A stretch of 64,000 bases of DNA. It comes from Microthrixaceae bacterium (GTDB lineage Bacteria; Actinomycetota; Acidimicrobiia; Acidimicrobiales; Microtrichaceae). The stretch is taken from positions 1-64,000 of the forward strand of contig JAHRAZ010000005.1 in NCBI GenBank assembly GCA_020027475.1, in the 5' to 3' direction. Made by a program: the position numbers and the translations under genes. Every line of letters starts with the position of its first letter. Positions within the stretch are counted from its first letter, which is position 1. Shown here in pieces: positions 51,461 through 63,700 of this stretch. The notes under the pieces were generated by a model. That model had not been told where the DNA came from and made no database searches. It saw only the letters and a list, made by a program, of their open reading frames with translations.

Positions 51461-52027
51461 CTATTCGCCTTCACAAGCCGACCAGAGGCCCGATCCCGCT
51501 TCTCTGGCCTTTCGCGATGCGGCCAGGAACTCATCTGTGTGAGCCACGTTTGGTGGGTATGTAGCCGGTTGCGCGTAGCCGTCGAGCGCCATTTGCAGAT
51601 TCACGAACAAGCCATCGGTTGCCCGGTAGACGTAGGCGAGGAGCCGGTCGTAGCGATCGCGGGCCTCCACGTCGCGCACGAGCACCAGCGGTGTGCCCGG
51701 TGGAAGGTACTCAGCGAGGTGCGCTGATGCTTCCTTCCCGAAACACTCCACGGGCGAGTTGGGCTTCACGCTTTCGGGAGTGTCGATGCCGATGAAACGG
51801 ATCCGCTCCTCGGCGCCGTCGATCATCGCCACGATCGTGTCTCCGTCAACCACCCGTGCGACCTCAGCGTTGGGCTCGCCGAGTTCCGCGGTTCCAGAGT
51901 CGACCGATGGGGCTTGGACGGTGTCAACAGCGTCTCCGGAAGCATTGTCGGCGGCACCGTTGGCGGGCTGATCGGATTCGGATGTACACCCGACCGCCAT
52001 GATGCTCACGATGATCAACATGATCAT
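51461..52027 (-). CDS. Staphylococcal-nuclease-like (thermonuclease) lipoprotein
   Basis: 188 residues from ATG 52027, with GGGGAAG upstream; a second ATG two codons later has better spacing. The signal sequence ends in the lipobox MAVGC, followed by a polar linker. The SNase domain shows VARVVDGDTIVAM, RIRFIGIDTPESVKP, VECFGKEASAHL and ARDRYDRLLAYVY: calcium-binding Asp and the catalytic Arg/Glu set are present in order. The gene is convergent with the deacetylase gene. It probably degrades extracellular DNA/RNA at the cell surface. Confidence 0.9.
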   Translation of the reverse strand: MIMLIIVSIMAVGCTSESDQPANGAADNASGDAVDTVQAPSVDSGTAELGEPNAEVARVVDGDTIVAMIDGAEERIRFIGIDTPESVKPNSPVECFGKEASAHLAEYLPPGTPLVLVRDVEARDRYDRLLAYVYRATDGLFVNLQMALDGYAQPATYPPNVAHTDEFLAASRKAREAGSGLWSACEGE

Positions 52028-52171
52028 CTTCCCCACTGATCGCGAGGCTCTTGCCGACACATCCGGTCTCGCCGGTACAACGAGTCGGGAATAGGAACCA
52101 TTCGCGGGCTGACAGTTGGTGTCGGCACCCGGGTTGCCGCGTGGCATGCACTCGCTGGGTGTCGTCACTGC

Positions 52172-54557: not shown

Positions 54558-56132
54558 TCAGGGGCTCAGGGCGTCGCGGAGGCGGCGCTTTTCGACCTTG
54601 CCCGAGGCGTTGAGCGGCATCTGTTCGACTTCGACAACTCCCCTCGGGCGTTTGAATCCAGCCAGATCGGAAGTCCAACTCCTCAAGTCGTCGACGCTGG
54701 GCAGATCCTGTCCATCCGCCACCACGATCACGGCAGTCACGAGTTCACCCCAATGCTCATCCGGCACGCCGATCACTGCCACCGACGCCACCGCAGTGTG
54801 CGTCGACACCGCGTCTTCGACCTCGCGGGAGGAGACGTTTTCGCCGCCCGTGATGATGATGTCCTTCTTGCGGTCGACAATATGCAAGTATCCGCGGGAG
54901 TCGATGCGGCCGACGTCGCCGGTGCGGAACCAACCGTCGAAGAAGGCCTCGGCGGTGGCTTCGGGATTCTCCCAGTAGCCGGCGCAGACTTGATCGCTGC
55001 GAATCAGGATTTCGCCGACCTCGCCGGGCGGGACCTCGGAATCGTCCTCCGCGGTGATCCTCAACGCGGTCAGTGGGGCCGGTCGTCCTGCGGCGCTGAG
55101 AATGTCGGGATCCGTGGTGGCCGCCCGGCGATGTTCGTCGGGTCCGAGGAACACAGCATTGCCGGAGAGTTCGGTCATTCCGTATCCCTGGGCCAATCCC
55201 GCGTTGGGCAGTTCGGTCAGGGTTCTTCGTAGAAGGTCAAGAGGCATGGCCGCGGCGCCATAGGAGATCTGTCGCAGCGTGGACAGGTCGTGGATGGCCC
55301 GGTCCGGATGATCGAGAAGCATGGCCACCATGGTCGGCGCAAGTGACACTGAGGTCACCGAGTGTTCCTCGATTGCACGCATCGCTGCCACGGGTTCGAA
55401 GCTCTCCAGCAGCACCACCGGCCGACGGCGCAGATGGTGATGAACCACGTTGTAGGCGGCCACATGGAACAGAGGGAACGGGAAGAGATAGACCTCGTCG
55501 GCGGCTACCGGGCGAGCCATTGTCGTGTTGAGAGCTGCGGCGATCAGTGATTGATGCGTGATCATCGCCCCCTTGGGTTTGCCCGTGGTGCCCGAGGTGT
55601 GGATGAGCCATGCAGTGTCGGATTCTGCAGCGCTGCCGACGGAGTTCGCACGCGCAGAGTCAAAGCCAGTGGTCTTCCCGGCAGAATCGAATGCCGCTGC
55701 GGAATCGAATGCCACAGCGGTGTCGAACATCGCCTCGGGATGGGCGGGGGAGAGTTCCACGAAGGTGTGGATCAACGAGTCGTCGGGCTTCGATTCGATC
55801 AAACGATCCAGATGCGTTCTCGTTGCGAGGAGCACTTCGGCCCGACTCGCCACCAACATCTCCCAGAGTTCGCGATCGGTATGGCGGGTATTGCCCATTG
55901 CCAGCACCATTTGCGCAGCGGGCACCGCGTAGAGCGCAGCAGCGAAACCAGGTGTGTTCTCGGCGACCACGGCAATGGTGGCTCCCGGACGGGCCTGTTT
56001 GGTCAGGGCCGAAGACATGGAATCAACGGCATCAGCGAATTGGGCGAACGTCCACTTCTGGTCCGCTGCGATCAGCGCGATGGCGTCGGCATTGTGTCGA
56101 GCGCCGAAGAAGATCACATCTTGTACGAACAC
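54558..56132 (-). CDS. Acyl-CoA synthetase (AMP-dependent, ANL superfamily)
   Basis: 524 residues. Activates a carboxylic acid via acyl-AMP to the CoA thioester. A3 motif WLIHTSGTTGKPKGAMITHQSL, A5 GYGMTELSGNAVF, A7 RTGDVGRIDSRGYLHIVDRKKDIIITGGENVSSREVE, and the A10-region lysine in NASGKVEKRRL. An Ala/Ser-rich insert (about residues 140-175) precedes A3. The start is GTG 56132. It is the last gene of a minus-strand run that includes an AttH-like protein, the methyltransferase-Mug fusion, an SDR and an LLM oxidoreductase. Confidence 0.94.
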   Translation of the reverse strand: MFVQDVIFFGARHNADAIALIAADQKWTFAQFADAVDSMSSALTKQARPGATIAVVAENTPGFAAALYAVPAAQMVLAMGNTRHTDRELWEMLVASRAEVLLATRTHLDRLIESKPDDSLIHTFVELSPAHPEAMFDTAVAFDSAAAFDSAGKTTGFDSARANSVGSAAESDTAWLIHTSGTTGKPKGAMITHQSLIAAALNTTMARPVAADEVYLFPFPLFHVAAYNVVHHHLRRRPVVLLESFEPVAAMRAIEEHSVTSVSLAPTMVAMLLDHPDRAIHDLSTLRQISYGAAAMPLDLLRRTLTELPNAGLAQGYGMTELSGNAVFLGPDEHRRAATTDPDILSAAGRPAPLTALRITAEDDSEVPPGEVGEILIRSDQVCAGYWENPEATAEAFFDGWFRTGDVGRIDSRGYLHIVDRKKDIIITGGENVSSREVEDAVSTHTAVASVAVIGVPDEHWGELVTAVIVVADGQDLPSVDDLRSWTSDLAGFKRPRGVVEVEQMPLNASGKVEKRRLRDALSP

Positions 56133-56158: not shown

Positions 56159-57196
56159 TCATTCGAGAATGCCGACGGGTTCACCGTCGATGATCTGATC
56201 GAGGTATTCAGACCATCCGTGCCCGCCGAGGGCTGGATCGTCGTCACCGCAGGGCTCGAGGGAGGTGTTGAGTGGTCCGCTGACCAACCAGTCGGTCAGC
56301 CCCTCGGCGATTCGGGTGACCCGGCCATCGCGACGGTTGCGCAGCGGGATCATGTTGCGGACCGAGCCCGTGAGGGTGCGCTGCAGCGGGGTCCCGTCTG
56401 AGTCGGTGAAGGTGAAGTCGGCCGTCACCTGCTGATGATTGGATCCATCGCTCCACTGGGTGCTCATCGACATGTCGGTCACCGGCAGGATCTCGGTGCC
56501 GTTCCAGACGAATCCGTTCCGGATGCCTTCACTGTCGGCGCGGGCAATGCGGCTGAGCATCATCCCCGTGCCATCTCCCAGGTTGACAGTGAGCCAGCGG
56601 TAATACCAGGGCGCTTGCCAGGTACGAGGACCCCAGGAGTGATCTCTCAGACCTTGGCCGTCCACATCCCACGATTCGTTCCCAATGGATACCGACCCGG
56701 ACGATCTGGTGAGTTGTTCGTAGTGGCCCTTGGCGAATTCCTCACCTGGTTTTTCCTTGTGCCCCACGGGCTCTCCGCCCCAAGGCAGGGAGTTGCCGGC
56801 CACGCTGAGTTGCAGTTCGCAGACTTCGTACGGGTTGTTCGTGAAGGCCTCTCTCGGCTCGGCCATGTCCAAGGGGTTCTCGAGCATGACCAACTTGCCA
56901 CGGTAGGAGATGTCCAGCTTCTCGAATGGAGTGTCGACTCTGAACTCGGCGCCGCCGGCAGAGAAGCCATCGTTGTTATCGATGGTTGGTCGCGAGAACA
57001 TGAATCCCACCCGCCCGTCGGGCAGGTAGACGCAGGCGGTTACCTCGGCATGACCTTCGTTGGGGCGATTGCCGATTCGGACGAAAGCGCCCAAGGCACT
57101 GCCCGGGTCGAACACGTTGAAGTACATGGACTCGTTGAACGTGTCCTCCGGGCCGGGATGCATGTACTCATCGGCCGGTTCAAGTCGAATCTGCAT
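56159..57196 (-). CDS. AttH/CrtC-like lipocalin-fold protein (tentative)
   Basis: 345 residues from ATG 57196, with AGGAGG at ideal distance. No signal peptide or membrane helix. Blocks such as FNESMYFNVFDPGSALGAFVRIGNRPNEGHAE, CVYLPDGRVGFMFSRP, SWDVDGQGLRDHSWGPRTWQAPWYYRWLTVNLGDGTGMML and IPLRNRRDGRVTRIAEGLTDWLV recall mycobacterial proteins of the carotenoid-hydratase/AttH-like superfamily (two lipocalin-like halves), often encoded near lipid or steroid genes. The Asp-His in LRDHSWGPR may be functional. The reaction is unknown and the family name is from memory of the pattern. Confidence 0.7.
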   Translation of the reverse strand: MQIRLEPADEYMHPGPEDTFNESMYFNVFDPGSALGAFVRIGNRPNEGHAEVTACVYLPDGRVGFMFSRPTIDNNDGFSAGGAEFRVDTPFEKLDISYRGKLVMLENPLDMAEPREAFTNNPYEVCELQLSVAGNSLPWGGEPVGHKEKPGEEFAKGHYEQLTRSSGSVSIGNESWDVDGQGLRDHSWGPRTWQAPWYYRWLTVNLGDGTGMMLSRIARADSEGIRNGFVWNGTEILPVTDMSMSTQWSDGSNHQQVTADFTFTDSDGTPLQRTLTGSVRNMIPLRNRRDGRVTRIAEGLTDWLVSGPLNTSLEPCGDDDPALGGHGWSEYLDQIIDGEPVGILE

Positions 57197-57245
57197 TAAT
57201 CCTCCTGAGAACGTGGAAATCATCCGTATTGGAACTATGGGAACA

Positions 57246-58403
57246 CTACGCGCCGGCTCCGAGCGCCACGGCTGCGCGGAAGTGCTCCGCCAGATCAGCT
57301 CGGGTGACATGCGCGTTCAGGCCGCTCGGATTGGGCATCAGCCACACCGGCCTTCCGCCCAGTTCTTCGCTTTGGAGCCCGGCCTTGGCGGAGGTGTTCA
57401 TCGCCGCTCTCCAACCGGTGAGTCCGATGATGCAGACGGCCGCTGGTTGCAGCCAATCACAGAGTCGTTCCAATCGGGCCATGCCGCAGCGGTACTCGTC
57501 CTTGCTCAGTTCATCCGCTCCGCGAGTCGCTCGTTTCACGATGTCCGTCATGCCGATGTGGCCATCACGAAGCAGTGCCTCCGGATCGCGGCTGCCGACT
57601 TCGGCGAGCCCGGAGTCTTCGAGAGCGGGCCAGCCGCGGTTGGATGGACCGGAGAACCCCACACCCGATTCCGCCGCGGGAAGGGAAGGATTCAGTCCCA
57701 CGAGCAGCAGCAACATGTCTGCTCCGACAGTGTCGGCGAGCGTGTGTTCCCGCCGAACGCGAACGCCGATGAAGGGAGCGCTGCCGATCAGGGGATCTGC
57801 CTGCTGAATTTTCTCGATGGTGAACCCGGCTCCGGCCAGTACGTCGGAGAGGAGTTGGGTGGGCCACAAAGAGAACGAGCGGCCCGAAAATTCGTCACCA
57901 TCGAATCCGGCGTACTCCACGTCGCCACCGAAGAGTCCCAGGTGCGTAATGCCTCCTGGTGCGAGGGCGCGGTGCAGATCCCGCAATGCCATCGGCATGT
58001 CGACACGGGCGATGTGGACGTAGGACTTGTTGGCCCATGCGGCGCGGAGGGAGCCTTTTGCGAATGGCAGTTGGCGAAGGTCTCCCTGTACGAGCGGAGT
58101 TTCCGGGGAGGCCACAGAGGCGAGTTCCAACATCGCTTCCGCTGCGTCCATGGCGACCGTGTCCACGGGAAGGTCATCGAGGTGCCAACCGGGTCCGCAA
58201 CCGAGATCGACGACCATTCCTTCCCCGGGACCGGGGCGAGATCCCAACTCCGCCGCGAACTCCTCGAGATAGTTCGTCTTGGCGCTGCGGAACTCGAGCC
58301 AGTCATCGGCCCGGGCTTCGTAGACATCGAGTGTGGAACGGTAACGATCGTCCCTGGTTTCGGAGTTGTCCGGGTCAACCATCTGATTCAGATCAGGAGA
58401 CAT
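57246..58403 (-). CDS. Fusion: SAM methyltransferase + Mug/TDG-type DNA glycosylase
   Basis: 385 residues. Residues ~20-215 are a class I SAM methyltransferase: motif I VVDLGCGPGW (64-73), acidic VAMDAAEAML, QGDLRQLPFAKGSL, and HRALAPGG. Residues ~228-385 match mismatch-specific DNA glycosylases of the Mug/TDG family: motif A GLNPS (236-240, with the catalytic Asn 238 present), SGPSNRGWPAL, GMTDIVKRATRGADELSKDEY, and motif B MPNPSGLNAH (356-365). Mug excises U or T opposite G. Both halves keep their key motifs, so both may be active. The joint role is unknown. It starts 15 bp after the SDR gene ends and lies within a lipid/F420-type operon. Confidence 0.88.
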   Translation of the reverse strand: MSPDLNQMVDPDNSETRDDRYRSTLDVYEARADDWLEFRSAKTNYLEEFAAELGSRPGPGEGMVVDLGCGPGWHLDDLPVDTVAMDAAEAMLELASVASPETPLVQGDLRQLPFAKGSLRAAWANKSYVHIARVDMPMALRDLHRALAPGGITHLGLFGGDVEYAGFDGDEFSGRSFSLWPTQLLSDVLAGAGFTIEKIQQADPLIGSAPFIGVRVRREHTLADTVGADMLLLLVGLNPSLPAAESGVGFSGPSNRGWPALEDSGLAEVGSRDPEALLRDGHIGMTDIVKRATRGADELSKDEYRCGMARLERLCDWLQPAAVCIIGLTGWRAAMNTSAKAGLQSEELGGRPVWLMPNPSGLNAHVTRADLAEHFRAAVALGAGA

Positions 58404-58418
58404 GGCCCATTTTCCTGC

Positions 58419-59303
58419 TCACGGATCCTGATCCAGATACGCCTGGAGTTTCCGCATGCCCGCGATCCACCGGTCCGTATCCTCTGTGCGTTTCTGCGCG
58501 TACTCGCGGACCTCTTCGTGGGGCGTGATGAGGAACTCGCCCCGGCCGAGTGCATCCGCAGTGAATGCCGCAACTTCGTCAGCGCCAAGAACCCTTTGAT
58601 GCTGGACGGCCTTTGCAGCCGTCGATGCGTCGAGATCATCCGAACTCCCCGAGGTGCCACCGGGCAGGTCGGCGAACTCGTCCGCGGAGGTTCCGAACAG
58701 CAGGGGAGTCCTGACTCCCTGCGGGCAGAGGCAACTTACGCCCACACCTCGGGCGCCGTGGGTGATCGCAACCCATTCCGCGAATGCGAGCGCCCCGTGT
58801 TTGGTCACCGAATAGGGCGCATCTCCAAGGTTGGTGATCATGGCGGCTGCCGAGGCAGTGGTGAGCAGGTGCCCGCCGCCACGTTCGATCCACCTCGGTA
58901 GCAGTGTCCGAGCGGCATGGACGTGGGCCATTACGTTCACGTTCCAGATCCGGCTCCACATGTCCACATCGGCTTCCACCCCGGTGCCGGTGGCGATTCC
59001 GGCATTGGCGCAATACAGGTCGATCGGGCCGTGGTCACCCTCGATCCGGTCGATGAGCTCGGTGGTGGCCTCGCCGTCGGCAACGTCGAGCTGGGCACCG
59101 ACCACAGCACCGTTTCCGTTGCCGGCCGCGATTCTCTCCGCAACTCCGCGGCTGCGATCCTCGTTCAAGTCCACGATCACCACGGTGTCGGCTCCCCGGT
59201 TGTGGAATTCGCGGGTGAGGGCGGCCCCGATACCACTGGCTCCACCTGTGACCACCACAACCTTGCCCCGTGGATCAAAGGGCTTGTTCACGGACTTGGT
59301 CAT
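58419..59303 (-). CDS. Short-chain dehydrogenase/reductase
   Basis: 294 residues from ATG 59303, which overlaps the stop of the LLM gene (ATGA). Classical SDR: TGGASGIGAALT cofactor loop, DVADGEATTELIDR, CANAGIATG, catalytic Ser in TTASAAAMITN and Tyr-x3-Lys in PYSVTKHGALAFAEW, GVSCLCPQGVRTPLL. The Asp after the second strand (VIVDLNEDR) favours NAD over NADP. The C-terminal helix is longer than usual. It probably oxidises or reduces an alcohol on an acyl or isoprenoid substrate, which cannot be identified. Confidence 0.94.
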   Translation of the reverse strand: MTKSVNKPFDPRGKVVVVTGGASGIGAALTREFHNRGADTVVIVDLNEDRSRGVAERIAAGNGNGAVVGAQLDVADGEATTELIDRIEGDHGPIDLYCANAGIATGTGVEADVDMWSRIWNVNVMAHVHAARTLLPRWIERGGGHLLTTASAAAMITNLGDAPYSVTKHGALAFAEWVAITHGARGVGVSCLCPQGVRTPLLFGTSADEFADLPGGTSGSSDDLDASTAAKAVQHQRVLGADEVAAFTADALGRGEFLITPHEEVREYAQKRTEDTDRWIAGMRKLQAYLDQDP

Positions 59304-60307
59304 CGGGGCTTCACGGCCTCGAGGGTCGCTTCGATCGTGGACACTCGGTCTTCTCCCCACGGCAGGGGCATGATCACCACATCGTCCACACCGGCGCGGA
59401 TGTAGGCGTCCGTTGCGGCACGGATTGTCTCAGCGTCACCGCAGATGTCGATCGAATCGATCATGGGCTCGGACACGGCGGCCAGCGCAGCGTCGCGGTC
59501 CTTGTTGGCATGTGCTGCCTGAATTGCCTGCACCTCTTCTGCGAATCCGGCGCGGGAAAAGGCGTTGGCGTATGCGGGGACCACCGCATAGGAGAAGAGA
59601 TCCCTCCGCGCCGCCTTGCGGGCTTGGTCTGGGTCACACAAACCAACATGCACGTAGGCGTGCACCTTGCATTCGCCCTCTGGTCGACCGGCCTTTGCTT
59701 CACCTGCCCGCACCTGCTCAACGCACCAGGGAACAGCGCCGGCAGGGAGGTAGTTGAGCAGGACGCCGTCCGCCAGTTCGCCGGCCGTTCGAAGCATCTG
59801 CTGATTCAGGGCTCCCAGCACCACCTTGGGTCGGCGGTCACCCAGTCTCACTCCGAGCCGGTAGCGATTGGTGCGGTAGAAACGACCTTCGTAGCTCACG
59901 GCGTTACCTGACAGGCATTCCTTGGTGAGTTTCAAGTATTCACGTATCTGTGCAATCGGGGCGGAGCCGTAGGCAGCGCCGTGCCATCGGTCCACCACCA
60001 CGGGCGATGAAATTCCGACGCCGAGAAGAATGTCATTGTCCTTGACGATTTCCTGAAGGGTGGCAGCGCCCATCGCTGCCAGCATCGGGGTGCGGAGTTG
60101 AATCGCCAGAACGCCAGTTCCAAGGCTCAGTCCCGGGGTCTCCGCCCCAACTGCGGCCAGTGTGGAGAAGGCTTCGTGCCCAACGGTTTCAGCCGTCCAG
60201 AAGGAGCCGAAACCCATGTCCTTGGCAGTTCGTGCAATTGACCTTCCAACGTCCAGGCCGAGCGGTTGGAAGCTGGCGAAGGTGACGCCAATCGTGGAGT
60301 TGGTCAT
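59300..60307 (-). CDS. LLM-class F420-dependent oxidoreductase
   Basis: 335 residues. Luciferase-like TIM barrel: IGVTFASFQPLGLDVGRSIARTAKDMGFGSFWTAETVGHEAFSTLAAVGAETPGLSLGTGVLAIQLRTPMLAAMGAATLQEI, then ILLGVGISSPVVVDRWHGAAYG. Not a recent copy of the enzyme encoded at 53534..54520, as the sequences differ widely. F420 use is inferred from the family and from cofC in the window. It is the first gene of the five-gene minus-strand run and overlaps the SDR gene by 4 nt. Confidence 0.92.
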   Translation of the reverse strand: MTNSTIGVTFASFQPLGLDVGRSIARTAKDMGFGSFWTAETVGHEAFSTLAAVGAETPGLSLGTGVLAIQLRTPMLAAMGAATLQEIVKDNDILLGVGISSPVVVDRWHGAAYGSAPIAQIREYLKLTKECLSGNAVSYEGRFYRTNRYRLGVRLGDRRPKVVLGALNQQMLRTAGELADGVLLNYLPAGAVPWCVEQVRAGEAKAGRPEGECKVHAYVHVGLCDPDQARKAARRDLFSYAVVPAYANAFSRAGFAEEVQAIQAAHANKDRDAALAAVSEPMIDSIDICGDAETIRAATDAYIRAGVDDVVIMPLPWGEDRVSTIEATLEAVKPR

Positions 60308-62225: not shown

Positions 62226-62825
62226 CGACGCCGGCCGCCCAGGGTGCGCGTGATTGATCCGGTTGGAGCCAGATTGAACTGGTTGCCGCCAGACGCGCGC
62301 GGCGGCTCTCCCAAGAAATGCACCGATCAGGGCGCCGCCAACGATGTCCGATGGGTGATGGACTCCAACGTGTACGCGACTCCACGAGACGGCCGTGGCG
62401 AGCGCGTACCAAGCCGGTGCGCCACCGAGGTCGGCGGACAGCAGGGCGGCAGCACAGAATCCGGCGGAGGCATGTCCACTGGGGAAACTTGATGTCAGCG
62501 GGGCGCGGAGGTCGTGCGCATGGTTCTCGAGGGCATCGGGGCGGTCACGATTGAATACCACCTTGATCGGGCCGTTCACGGTGGCCTGTTCCACTGCGAG
62601 AATGACGCTGCGGCGCAGCGCCCGGCGGCGACGCGACCGGTCGTCCCCGGCGGTCACCAGATCGAGGAAGTTGATCGCATGCCAGAGGATCGAGTGATTG
62701 GCGGCCTCTGACAGTGCGTACATCACCGCATCCACGCCGGGATTACCCCGCAAAGAGGCGGCGAAGCGTTCAACCTGCAGATCGAATTGTTCGACCTGTG
62801 CTTCGATCGGTCCGAATGTGGTCAC
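62223..62825 (-). CDS. PAP2 family phosphatase
   Basis: 200 residues. Lipid-phosphate or similar acid phosphatase. The three motifs are KVVFNRDRP (KxxxxxxRP), PSGHASAG, and SRVHVGVHHPSD (SRxxxxxHxxxD), all intact. About four to five weak hydrophobic segments lie in the second half. It may make diacylglycerol from phosphatidate, the substrate of the WS/DGAT encoded next on the same strand, which is a pathway inference. The start is GTG 62825, overlapping the nuclease gene stop by 4 nt. Confidence 0.9.
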   Translation of the reverse strand: MTTFGPIEAQVEQFDLQVERFAASLRGNPGVDAVMYALSEAANHSILWHAINFLDLVTAGDDRSRRRRALRRSVILAVEQATVNGPIKVVFNRDRPDALENHAHDLRAPLTSSFPSGHASAGFCAAALLSADLGGAPAWYALATAVSWSRVHVGVHHPSDIVGGALIGAFLGRAAARVWRQPVQSGSNRINHAHPGRPAS

Positions 62826-63661
62826 GGCGTGGCTGGCTGGGCGGCGGTCGCCACTTCGTTCGCTGCGGCGAGTTGTTTGGCATCATCGGGGTTACCGCCG
62901 AATTCCGGGCAGAACGCCTGGAACGAACACCAGTTGCACAGAGGTGACTTCTTCGGCCGAAAGTCTTCCCTCTCACAGGCTCGCTCCACGGCGTTCCAGA
63001 CAGCGGAGACCTTTGTCTTGAGGCCCCGCGCGGATTGCTCGCTTGGTGTCGCAGTGATGATTTGAGGTTCTGCACCCAGGTAGATCAGCTGTACGGCCGC
63101 CGGGAGCTCTCCATAAACCTCTCGACACAGGTAGGCGTAGAAGTGAACGCCGCCCATTCGCTCGCGTTCGCGCATCACCGACGGAGCTCGGCCTGTCTTG
63201 TAGTCGCTGACAACCAGGCGCCCATCGGAGTTCCGTTCGAGCCGGTCGATGATTCCGCGGATGTGGACATCACCAATGTCAGCCTCGAGCATCTGTTCGT
63301 TGGCAACCACGTCGATTGTCCTGGGGTCTTCAAGAGCGAAGTACCGGTCGATCATCGTCTGGGCGTCGGCTGCGAACTTCTCGGCCCCCGAATCATCGAG
63401 GTTGAGTTCGGTGTATTCCTCGTTGCCTTGCATCTCCTCCAGTGCCACCTCGAGCTGAGCTGTGGCCAATGCCGGGACTCGGTCGGCCGGCTCGGCAGCC
63501 ATGAGGAGTTCAAGGGCTCTGTGGACTGTGGTTCCCTTGACGGCCGGCTCCGACGGCGGTTCCGGGAGTTTGTCGATTGCCGAGAAACGAAATGCGAGCG
63601 CACAGCTCTGGAAGCTCGAGACCTTCGACGGAGACAGCGAACTGGGCAGAGGTAGAGCCAT
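62822..63661 (-). CDS. RecB-family PD-(D/E)XK nuclease
   Basis: 279 residues from ATG 63661, chosen for GGAG 5 nt upstream and TACCAT 7 nt upstream. Begins SLSPSKVSSFQSCALAFRF, with a Cys, like AddB/RecB-family exonucleases. Catalytic motifs: GTTVHRALE (His), IRGIIDRLERNSDG (Asp), VVSDYKTGR (Glu/Asp-x-Lys). The C-terminus has CNWCSFQAFC, which together with the N-terminal Cys may bind a 4Fe-4S cluster as in AddB and Cas4. It is a single-domain protein, so it acts alone or with a separate helicase. Confidence 0.9.
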   Translation of the reverse strand: MALPLPSSLSPSKVSSFQSCALAFRFSAIDKLPEPPSEPAVKGTTVHRALELLMAAEPADRVPALATAQLEVALEEMQGNEEYTELNLDDSGAEKFAADAQTMIDRYFALEDPRTIDVVANEQMLEADIGDVHIRGIIDRLERNSDGRLVVSDYKTGRAPSVMRERERMGGVHFYAYLCREVYGELPAAVQLIYLGAEPQIITATPSEQSARGLKTKVSAVWNAVERACEREDFRPKKSPLCNWCSFQAFCPEFGGNPDDAKQLAAANEVATAAQPATP

Positions 63662-63668
63662 GCTCCGC

Positions 63669-63674
63669 ATGGTA
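63669..63674 (-). promoter_or_regulatory. -10 element TACCAT, probable promoter of the RecB-type nuclease gene
   Basis: On the minus strand TACCAT is followed by 7 nt and ATG 63661. Confidence 0.35.
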
Positions 63675-63700
63675 GGGGCCGGTTGTGACACGGCCGGTTG

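Follow-up and report, generated by a model that had tools for sequence, protein, structure and literature searches.

A bacterial DNA glycosylase of the Mug/TDG type, fused to a class I SAM methyltransferase, is encoded in the window, which is the whole 64,000-nucleotide stretch analysed here from a Microthrixaceae bacterium (order Acidimicrobiales). It belongs to a seemingly undescribed family that is widespread in its order. We consider it probable that this protein serves in base excision repair, with an N-terminal methyltransferase that is accessory and dispensable, and with a pocket of altered base preference built around D287 and K290. New here are three features of the clade as read from its sequences: the changes in its base pocket, the repeated loss of its SAM-binding half and its near mutual exclusion with the classic Mug.

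If this reading of the pocket is true, nature would have made the switch that base-editor engineers introduced into UNG, in another UDG family and across a large bacterial order. This would constitute a new base specificity in DNA repair, a testable case of substrate change in a glycosylase and a possible source of starting enzymes for cytosine-directed base editing. If it is wrong, what would still remain is a repair enzyme of two domains that has apparently not been described before and is found across a whole bacterial order. The repeated loss of half of the fused methyltransferase, moreover, provides a clear series of natural examples in which a domain decays but a fragment of it persists.

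A single frame encodes both domains

The gene and its functional parts are located as follows.

57246–58403, minus strand: whole gene for the 385-residue methyltransferase-Mug fusion protein (open frame; full-length ortholog from the same genus)
57753–58346, minus strand: class I SAM methyltransferase domain, about residues 20–217 (Pfam Methyltransf_25/11; conserved residues in 47 full fusions)
58185–58214, minus strand: SAM-binding motif I, VVDLGCGPGW, residues 64–73 (sequence and alignment of fusions)
57753–58016, minus strand: C-terminal part of the methyltransferase, about residues 130–217 (alignment, profile scan)
57258–57752, minus strand: Mug/TDG-family (UDG family 2) DNA glycosylase domain, residues 218–382 (profiles, structure matches, tree clade)
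57684–57698, minus strand: motif 1, GLNPS, residues 236–240 (Asn in 132/132 Mug domains)
57657–57659, minus strand: G249, at the position of TDG H151 (alignment; His in 32/32 classic Mugs)
57543–57545, minus strand: D287, base-reading position (alignment; mapping from PMC9800633, PMC10776899, PMC5387724)
57534–57536, minus strand: K290, covariant with D287 (the pair is DK in 92 of 100 clade members)
57309–57332, minus strand: motif 2 or DNA-wedge loop, NPSGLNAH, residues 358–365 (alignment)

The frame starts with ATG and runs without a stop, and its length as well as the positions of its three motifs are those given in an earlier, sequence-only reading of this DNA. That reading had considered a stop or frameshift between the halves; instead, the ortholog of a congener is 91% identical across the full length, and both halves lie in one frame at the 54 fused-type loci whose sequences we read. 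A frameshift or assembly artefact as the source of the fusion is ruled out, given its conservation across the order. In the comparison with the congener, dN/dS is about 0.09–0.11 for the SAM-binding half, 0.18 (NG86 only) for the C-terminal part of the methyltransferase and 0.13–0.15 for the Mug domain, and both halves are therefore under purifying selection. AlphaFold, run on the single sequence of the fusion protein, returned a pLDDT of 34.5.

The glycosylase half belongs to the Mug/TDG family

The C-terminal half matches the Pfam UDG profile PF03167 over residues 232–377 (E=7.1e-11, over the curated cut-off) and, at domain level, the NCBIfam Mug model PRK10201 (E=1.1e-21, below the equivalog cut-off of 144 bits). 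Among solved structures, E. coli Mug (PDB 1mug, 1mtl) is the best match and aligns over the whole glycosylase domain (E=1.1e-18), followed by human TDG (E=7e-11). Motif 1 shows the GxNP pattern with the catalytic Asn, its last position having changed from Gly to Ser relative to the GINPG of Mug/TDG, and GLNPS does not match motif 1 of UDG families 1, 3, 4, 5, 6 or UDGX (e.g. GQDPYH, GEGPG, GLAPAAHG, GEQPG). N238 aligns with the water-positioning residue of E. coli Mug (N18) and TDG (N140) and is Asn in all 100 members of the fused-type clade. The proposed Mug-family domain is thus upheld by the profiles, and a loss of the Asn among relatives, which had been contemplated, is not seen. Motif 2 follows the N/S-P/S-S-G pattern of the wedge loop, as NPSGLNAH in the window and as STSG in most of the clade. 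Within the Mug domain, G236, L237, N238, P239, S240, N255, R256 and W258 are invariant among 47 full fusions.

E. coli Mug and the fusion have the catalytic Asn, the stacking Phe, the FxxPxNR region and the NPSGL wedge loop in common, and N140, A145 and N157 of TDG, a member of the same family, are kept as N238, A243 and N255. By contrast, K68, GINPG and P29 of E. coli Mug correspond to D287, GLNPS and G249, while N191, H151 and G142 of TDG correspond to D287, G249 and S240; both proteins also lack the methyltransferase.

The clade has a changed base pocket

In a tree of 132 Mug domains, comprising 100 of the fused type and 32 classic stand-alone ones, all fused-type domains form one clade (100 rows, SH-aLRT 100) on a stem of 1.11 changes per column. 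The classic actinobacterial Mugs (e.g. L079, L061) are about 36–47% identical to the window protein over the Mug domain and, unlike the full fusions, have no N-terminal domain. At positions 240, 249 and 287, the classic proteins carry GHN in 25 of 32 cases, whereas the fused clade carries SGD in 86 of 100. Taken singly, position 240 is Ser in the whole clade (100/100) versus 7/32 classic Mugs, position 249 is Gly or Ala in 97/100 versus His in every classic Mug, and position 287 is Asp in 99/100 versus Asn in 32/32. The Lys at position 290 occurs in 0/32 of the classic Mugs sampled.

Position 287 aligns with K68 of E. coli Mug, N191 of TDG and N123 of UNG. In UNG, N123 binds uracil at N3 and O4 (PMC5387724); in TDG, N191 has its greatest importance with 5-carboxylcytosine and 8-oxoadenine (PMC9800633), and H151 touches N4 of 5caC (PMC3488261). 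The mutants hUNG N204D and EcUNG N123D, which like the fused clade have Asp at the equivalent base-reading position, excise cytosine (PMC11289083); as laboratory mutants of a family 1 enzyme, they provide an analogy for specificity only.

The sequence-only reading had proposed activity on G:U and G:T pairs. Its family assignment stands, but with Asp in place of the base-reading Asn in this clade, a plain G:U/G:T specificity cannot be taken for granted. We lean slightly towards a specificity that differs from that of the classic Mug and infer from the alignment that the shift would be towards cytosine-type bases; with Asp at the position of UNG N123, the clade may by that alignment count as a cytosine-type glycosylase. 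The genome of the window also encodes a family 4 UDG (GEGPG) and a family 5 UDG (GLAPAAHG) as separate genes, and plain uracil is therefore covered.

The methyltransferase half retains an intact SAM site

Residues 64–151 match Pfam Methyltransf_25 (E=3.8e-13, over the curated cut-off), and the domain shows the GxGxG motif I and the acidic residues after β1 and β2 of class I SAM methyltransferases, in agreement with the domain proposed earlier. In the 47 aligned full fusions, Y28, D66, G68, G70, G72, D86, M91, P113, H130 and R175 are invariant, R39, H144, F177 and W180 nearly so, and D108 is kept in 42. The methyltransferase is, in our judgement, likely to be catalytically active in full-length members.

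Its acceptor is less readily named. The suggestion that it acts on DNA bases finds no support in its motifs: motif IV of DNA methyltransferases ((D/N/S)PP(Y/F) or PC) is absent, the segment after β4 reading NKSYVH, and neither a target-recognition domain nor any DNA-methyltransferase profile among the Pfam and NCBIfam matches was found in the fusion protein. Of the PADLOC defence models, only mad2 touched the methyltransferase, at an unconvincing E=0.0069. SAM motifs are shared with the small class I methyltransferases of PDB entries 3h2b, 3e23 and 3l8d, and a D/GDFPxRxFxxW segment with four relatives from the same order (L072, L073, L074, L076), all of which, unlike the fused domain, stand alone. 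Two of the genomes with these relatives (G038, G091) have a classic Mug elsewhere. The neighbours of haloarchaeal methyltransferases gave no hint of a substrate. An acceptor of the DNA, nucleotide or RNA kind is conceivable, but we rather lean against it.

The SAM-binding half was lost repeatedly

METHYLTRANSFERASE decay is apparent in 43 clade members with enough upstream DNA, which have no SAM-binding half in the frame of the Mug. In one of them (L127, G287:C52), this half is found in another frame, which may mean that the gene is split or has suffered a frameshift. A segment matching residues 130–217 (VPLALxDLHxxLxVG...W...LxDVLxGAGF) is retained by most of the others. On the tree, 22 changes are needed, at least six of which are forced by well-supported branches. 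Relocation of the lost domain was considered and rejected: of 40 genomes without the SAM-binding half, only G188 carries a stand-alone copy of close similarity (143 bits), and the remainder have none or generic matches only.

As the SAM-binding half was lost repeatedly while the Mug was kept, the methyltransferase is accessory to the Mug. Its C-terminal part is probably structural, and a probable packing of it against the Mug domain would account for the survival of this remnant after the catalytic half is lost.

The fusion is widespread in one order and rarely meets the classic Mug

Matches to the window protein occur in 160 of the 298 genomes of the order, and the sequences read from them include at least 54 full-length fusions. 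Across 396 genomes of the phylum, everything matched outside the order was a Mug alone. No fusion turned up in phages, plasmids or viral contigs, where Mug and methyltransferase matches were separate. No description of a methyltransferase-Mug fusion was found in the open-licence PMC papers searched.

In their own tree, the fused methyltransferases lie on one side of a weakly supported branch (38), and together with the four stand-alone relatives from the order they form one group (SH-aLRT 99). As far as these sequences go, this fits a single fusion event without proving it.

A classic Mug is present in 33 of the 156 Mug-bearing genomes of the order and coincides with a clade member in just one, where 13.7 such genomes would be expected if relatedness is ignored (hypergeometric p about 1e-7). 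For this count, non-classic Mugs were assigned to the clade by score, 100 of them having been read. Phylogeny is a confounder of this near mutual exclusion. The one exceptional genome (G197, contigs C194 and C10) could be a true double or, with its 630 contigs, a mixed assembly. This one-or-the-other pattern, together with the presence of family 4 and 5 UDGs alongside, fits a Mug-like role in DNA repair.

The gene neighbourhood is separable from the fusion

In the window, the fusion gene is flanked by the following genes, whose proposed identities are confirmed by profiles.

59300–60307, minus strand: LLM-class F420-dependent oxidoreductase (TIGR03841, over the cut-off)
58419–59303, minus strand: SDR oxidoreductase, upstream (start overlaps the LLM stop; separated from the fusion gene by 15 bp)
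56159–57199, minus strand: DUF7065/DUF7064 protein ('AttH-like'), downstream (weak Rv3169-family match)
54558–56132, minus strand: acyl-CoA synthetase (AMP-binding; profile matches)

The usual order is PAP2, WS/DGAT, LLM, SDR, fusion, DUF7064 and acyl-CoA synthetase, and the fusion follows the SDR/LLM genes immediately, both in the window and at most loci whose flanks are long enough. It had been asked whether the architecture always accompanies these lipid/F420 genes. It does not, and the two are separable in both directions: full fusions occur elsewhere without them (L086, L092, L096, L097), and the SDR block occurs without an adjoining Mug (L228, L230, L231, L235, L238). We accordingly reject the lipid/F420 operon as the functional context; most likely it is a location rather than a pathway, and the link is positional. 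That the gene follows SDR/LLM genes at most loci nonetheless counts against the DNA-repair reading, and a link to the pathway can still be entertained.

A protein of about 100 residues, c15 (alignment A2), without a Pfam match above chance, is encoded behind the SDR gene in 59 of the 298 genomes. Its C-terminus, Q[LM]x[LIF][FWL], in which the Gln is invariant, resembles a sliding-clamp-binding motif, and in about 21 genomes (L080, L088, L093, L094, L100, L101 and others) its gene immediately precedes that of the Mug. We rejected it as specific evidence for a Mug partner, since its place is behind the SDR gene and it is also seen where no Mug is nearby (L228–L238); in our sample, it is absent from the family of the window.

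The same syntenic block encodes, within about 6 kb of the fusion, a RecB-like PD-(D/E)XK nuclease (62822–63691, minus strand) and a thermonuclease-like protein, named by sequence only (51464–52168, minus strand).

Discussion

Three targets had been left open by the sequence-only reading: DNA, nucleotides or a small molecule. For the Mug half, the mutual exclusion with the classic Mug and its retention after loss of the methyltransferase narrow these towards DNA, on which it probably acts. By analogy with Mug and TDG, the NPSGLNAH loop would insert into the duplex, the flipped base would stack on F250, and N238 would position the water that breaks the glycosidic bond. D287 and K290 would read the Watson-Crick edge in place of the Asn, and G249 would leave the pocket open near the exocyclic group. 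Because of these two changes, the preferred base has probably moved from plain uracil towards one with an amino group at that place, i.e. cytosine or a damaged or modified cytosine, while the methyltransferase would use SAM on a putative acceptor.

The main alternative to such a shift is that D287 and K290 may form a structural salt bridge in an otherwise ordinary Mug, with the classic specificity for G:U, G:T and etheno-C and with an unrelated methyltransferase that happens to be fused to it, retained by some lineages and decaying in others. That the two residues co-vary as a pair speaks for it, as does the main-chain contact between the Asn and a Lys three residues on in UDGa and UDGX (PMC10776899); E. 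coli Mug, moreover, is active with Lys at this position, which hence tolerates change, and in the genome the clade seems to take the place of the classic Mug. Yet positions 240, 249 and 287 changed together on the long stem and have hardly varied since among about 100 diverse sequences, a pattern suggestive of selection for a new specificity, and we regard an ordinary Mug as unlikely. A bolder version of the specificity shift, in which a natural Mug/TDG lineage was turned into a glycosylase for cytosine-type bases, such as a methylated or damaged cytosine, by the N-to-D change known from engineered UNG, and the fused methyltransferase works on the same substrate, product or repair intermediate, seems to us more doubtful still.

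There are two further explanations. In one, the protein would be a small-molecule enzyme of the lipid/F420 operon, whose methyltransferase modifies an intermediate and which recruited the glycosylase fold as a nucleosidase or binding domain, in line with its usual place behind the SDR/LLM genes and with a methyltransferase that resembles small-molecule types. The conserved DNA-wedge loop, the full set of Mug catalytic residues, the loci in which fusion and block occur apart and the persistence of the Mug once the methyltransferase half is gone make this very unlikely. In the other, a device akin to restriction or epigenetic marking, the methyltransferase would mark DNA or nucleotides and the glycosylase remove the unmarked or mis-marked base. 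The fusion of a methyl donor enzyme to a base-excision enzyme, the Asp predicted to read an amino group and the conservation of both active sites in full fusions would suit such a device, but the missing motif IV and target-recognition domain, the lack of a convincing defence match in PADLOC (E=0.007 only) and of a mobile or defence context, and the toxicity expected when the methyltransferase is lost and the Mug kept render it the least credible of all.

For the favoured repair glycosylase with its altered pocket, a probable sequence of events can be outlined. One full fusion (L120, G203:C372) has S240 and G249, yet carries Asn at position 287, and all other clade members group to its exclusion (support 94). 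Because this outer-branching fusion keeps the Asn, the fusion would precede the N-to-D change, so that fusion and opening of the pocket probably came before it. L120 itself represents a natural intermediate for the N-to-D step.
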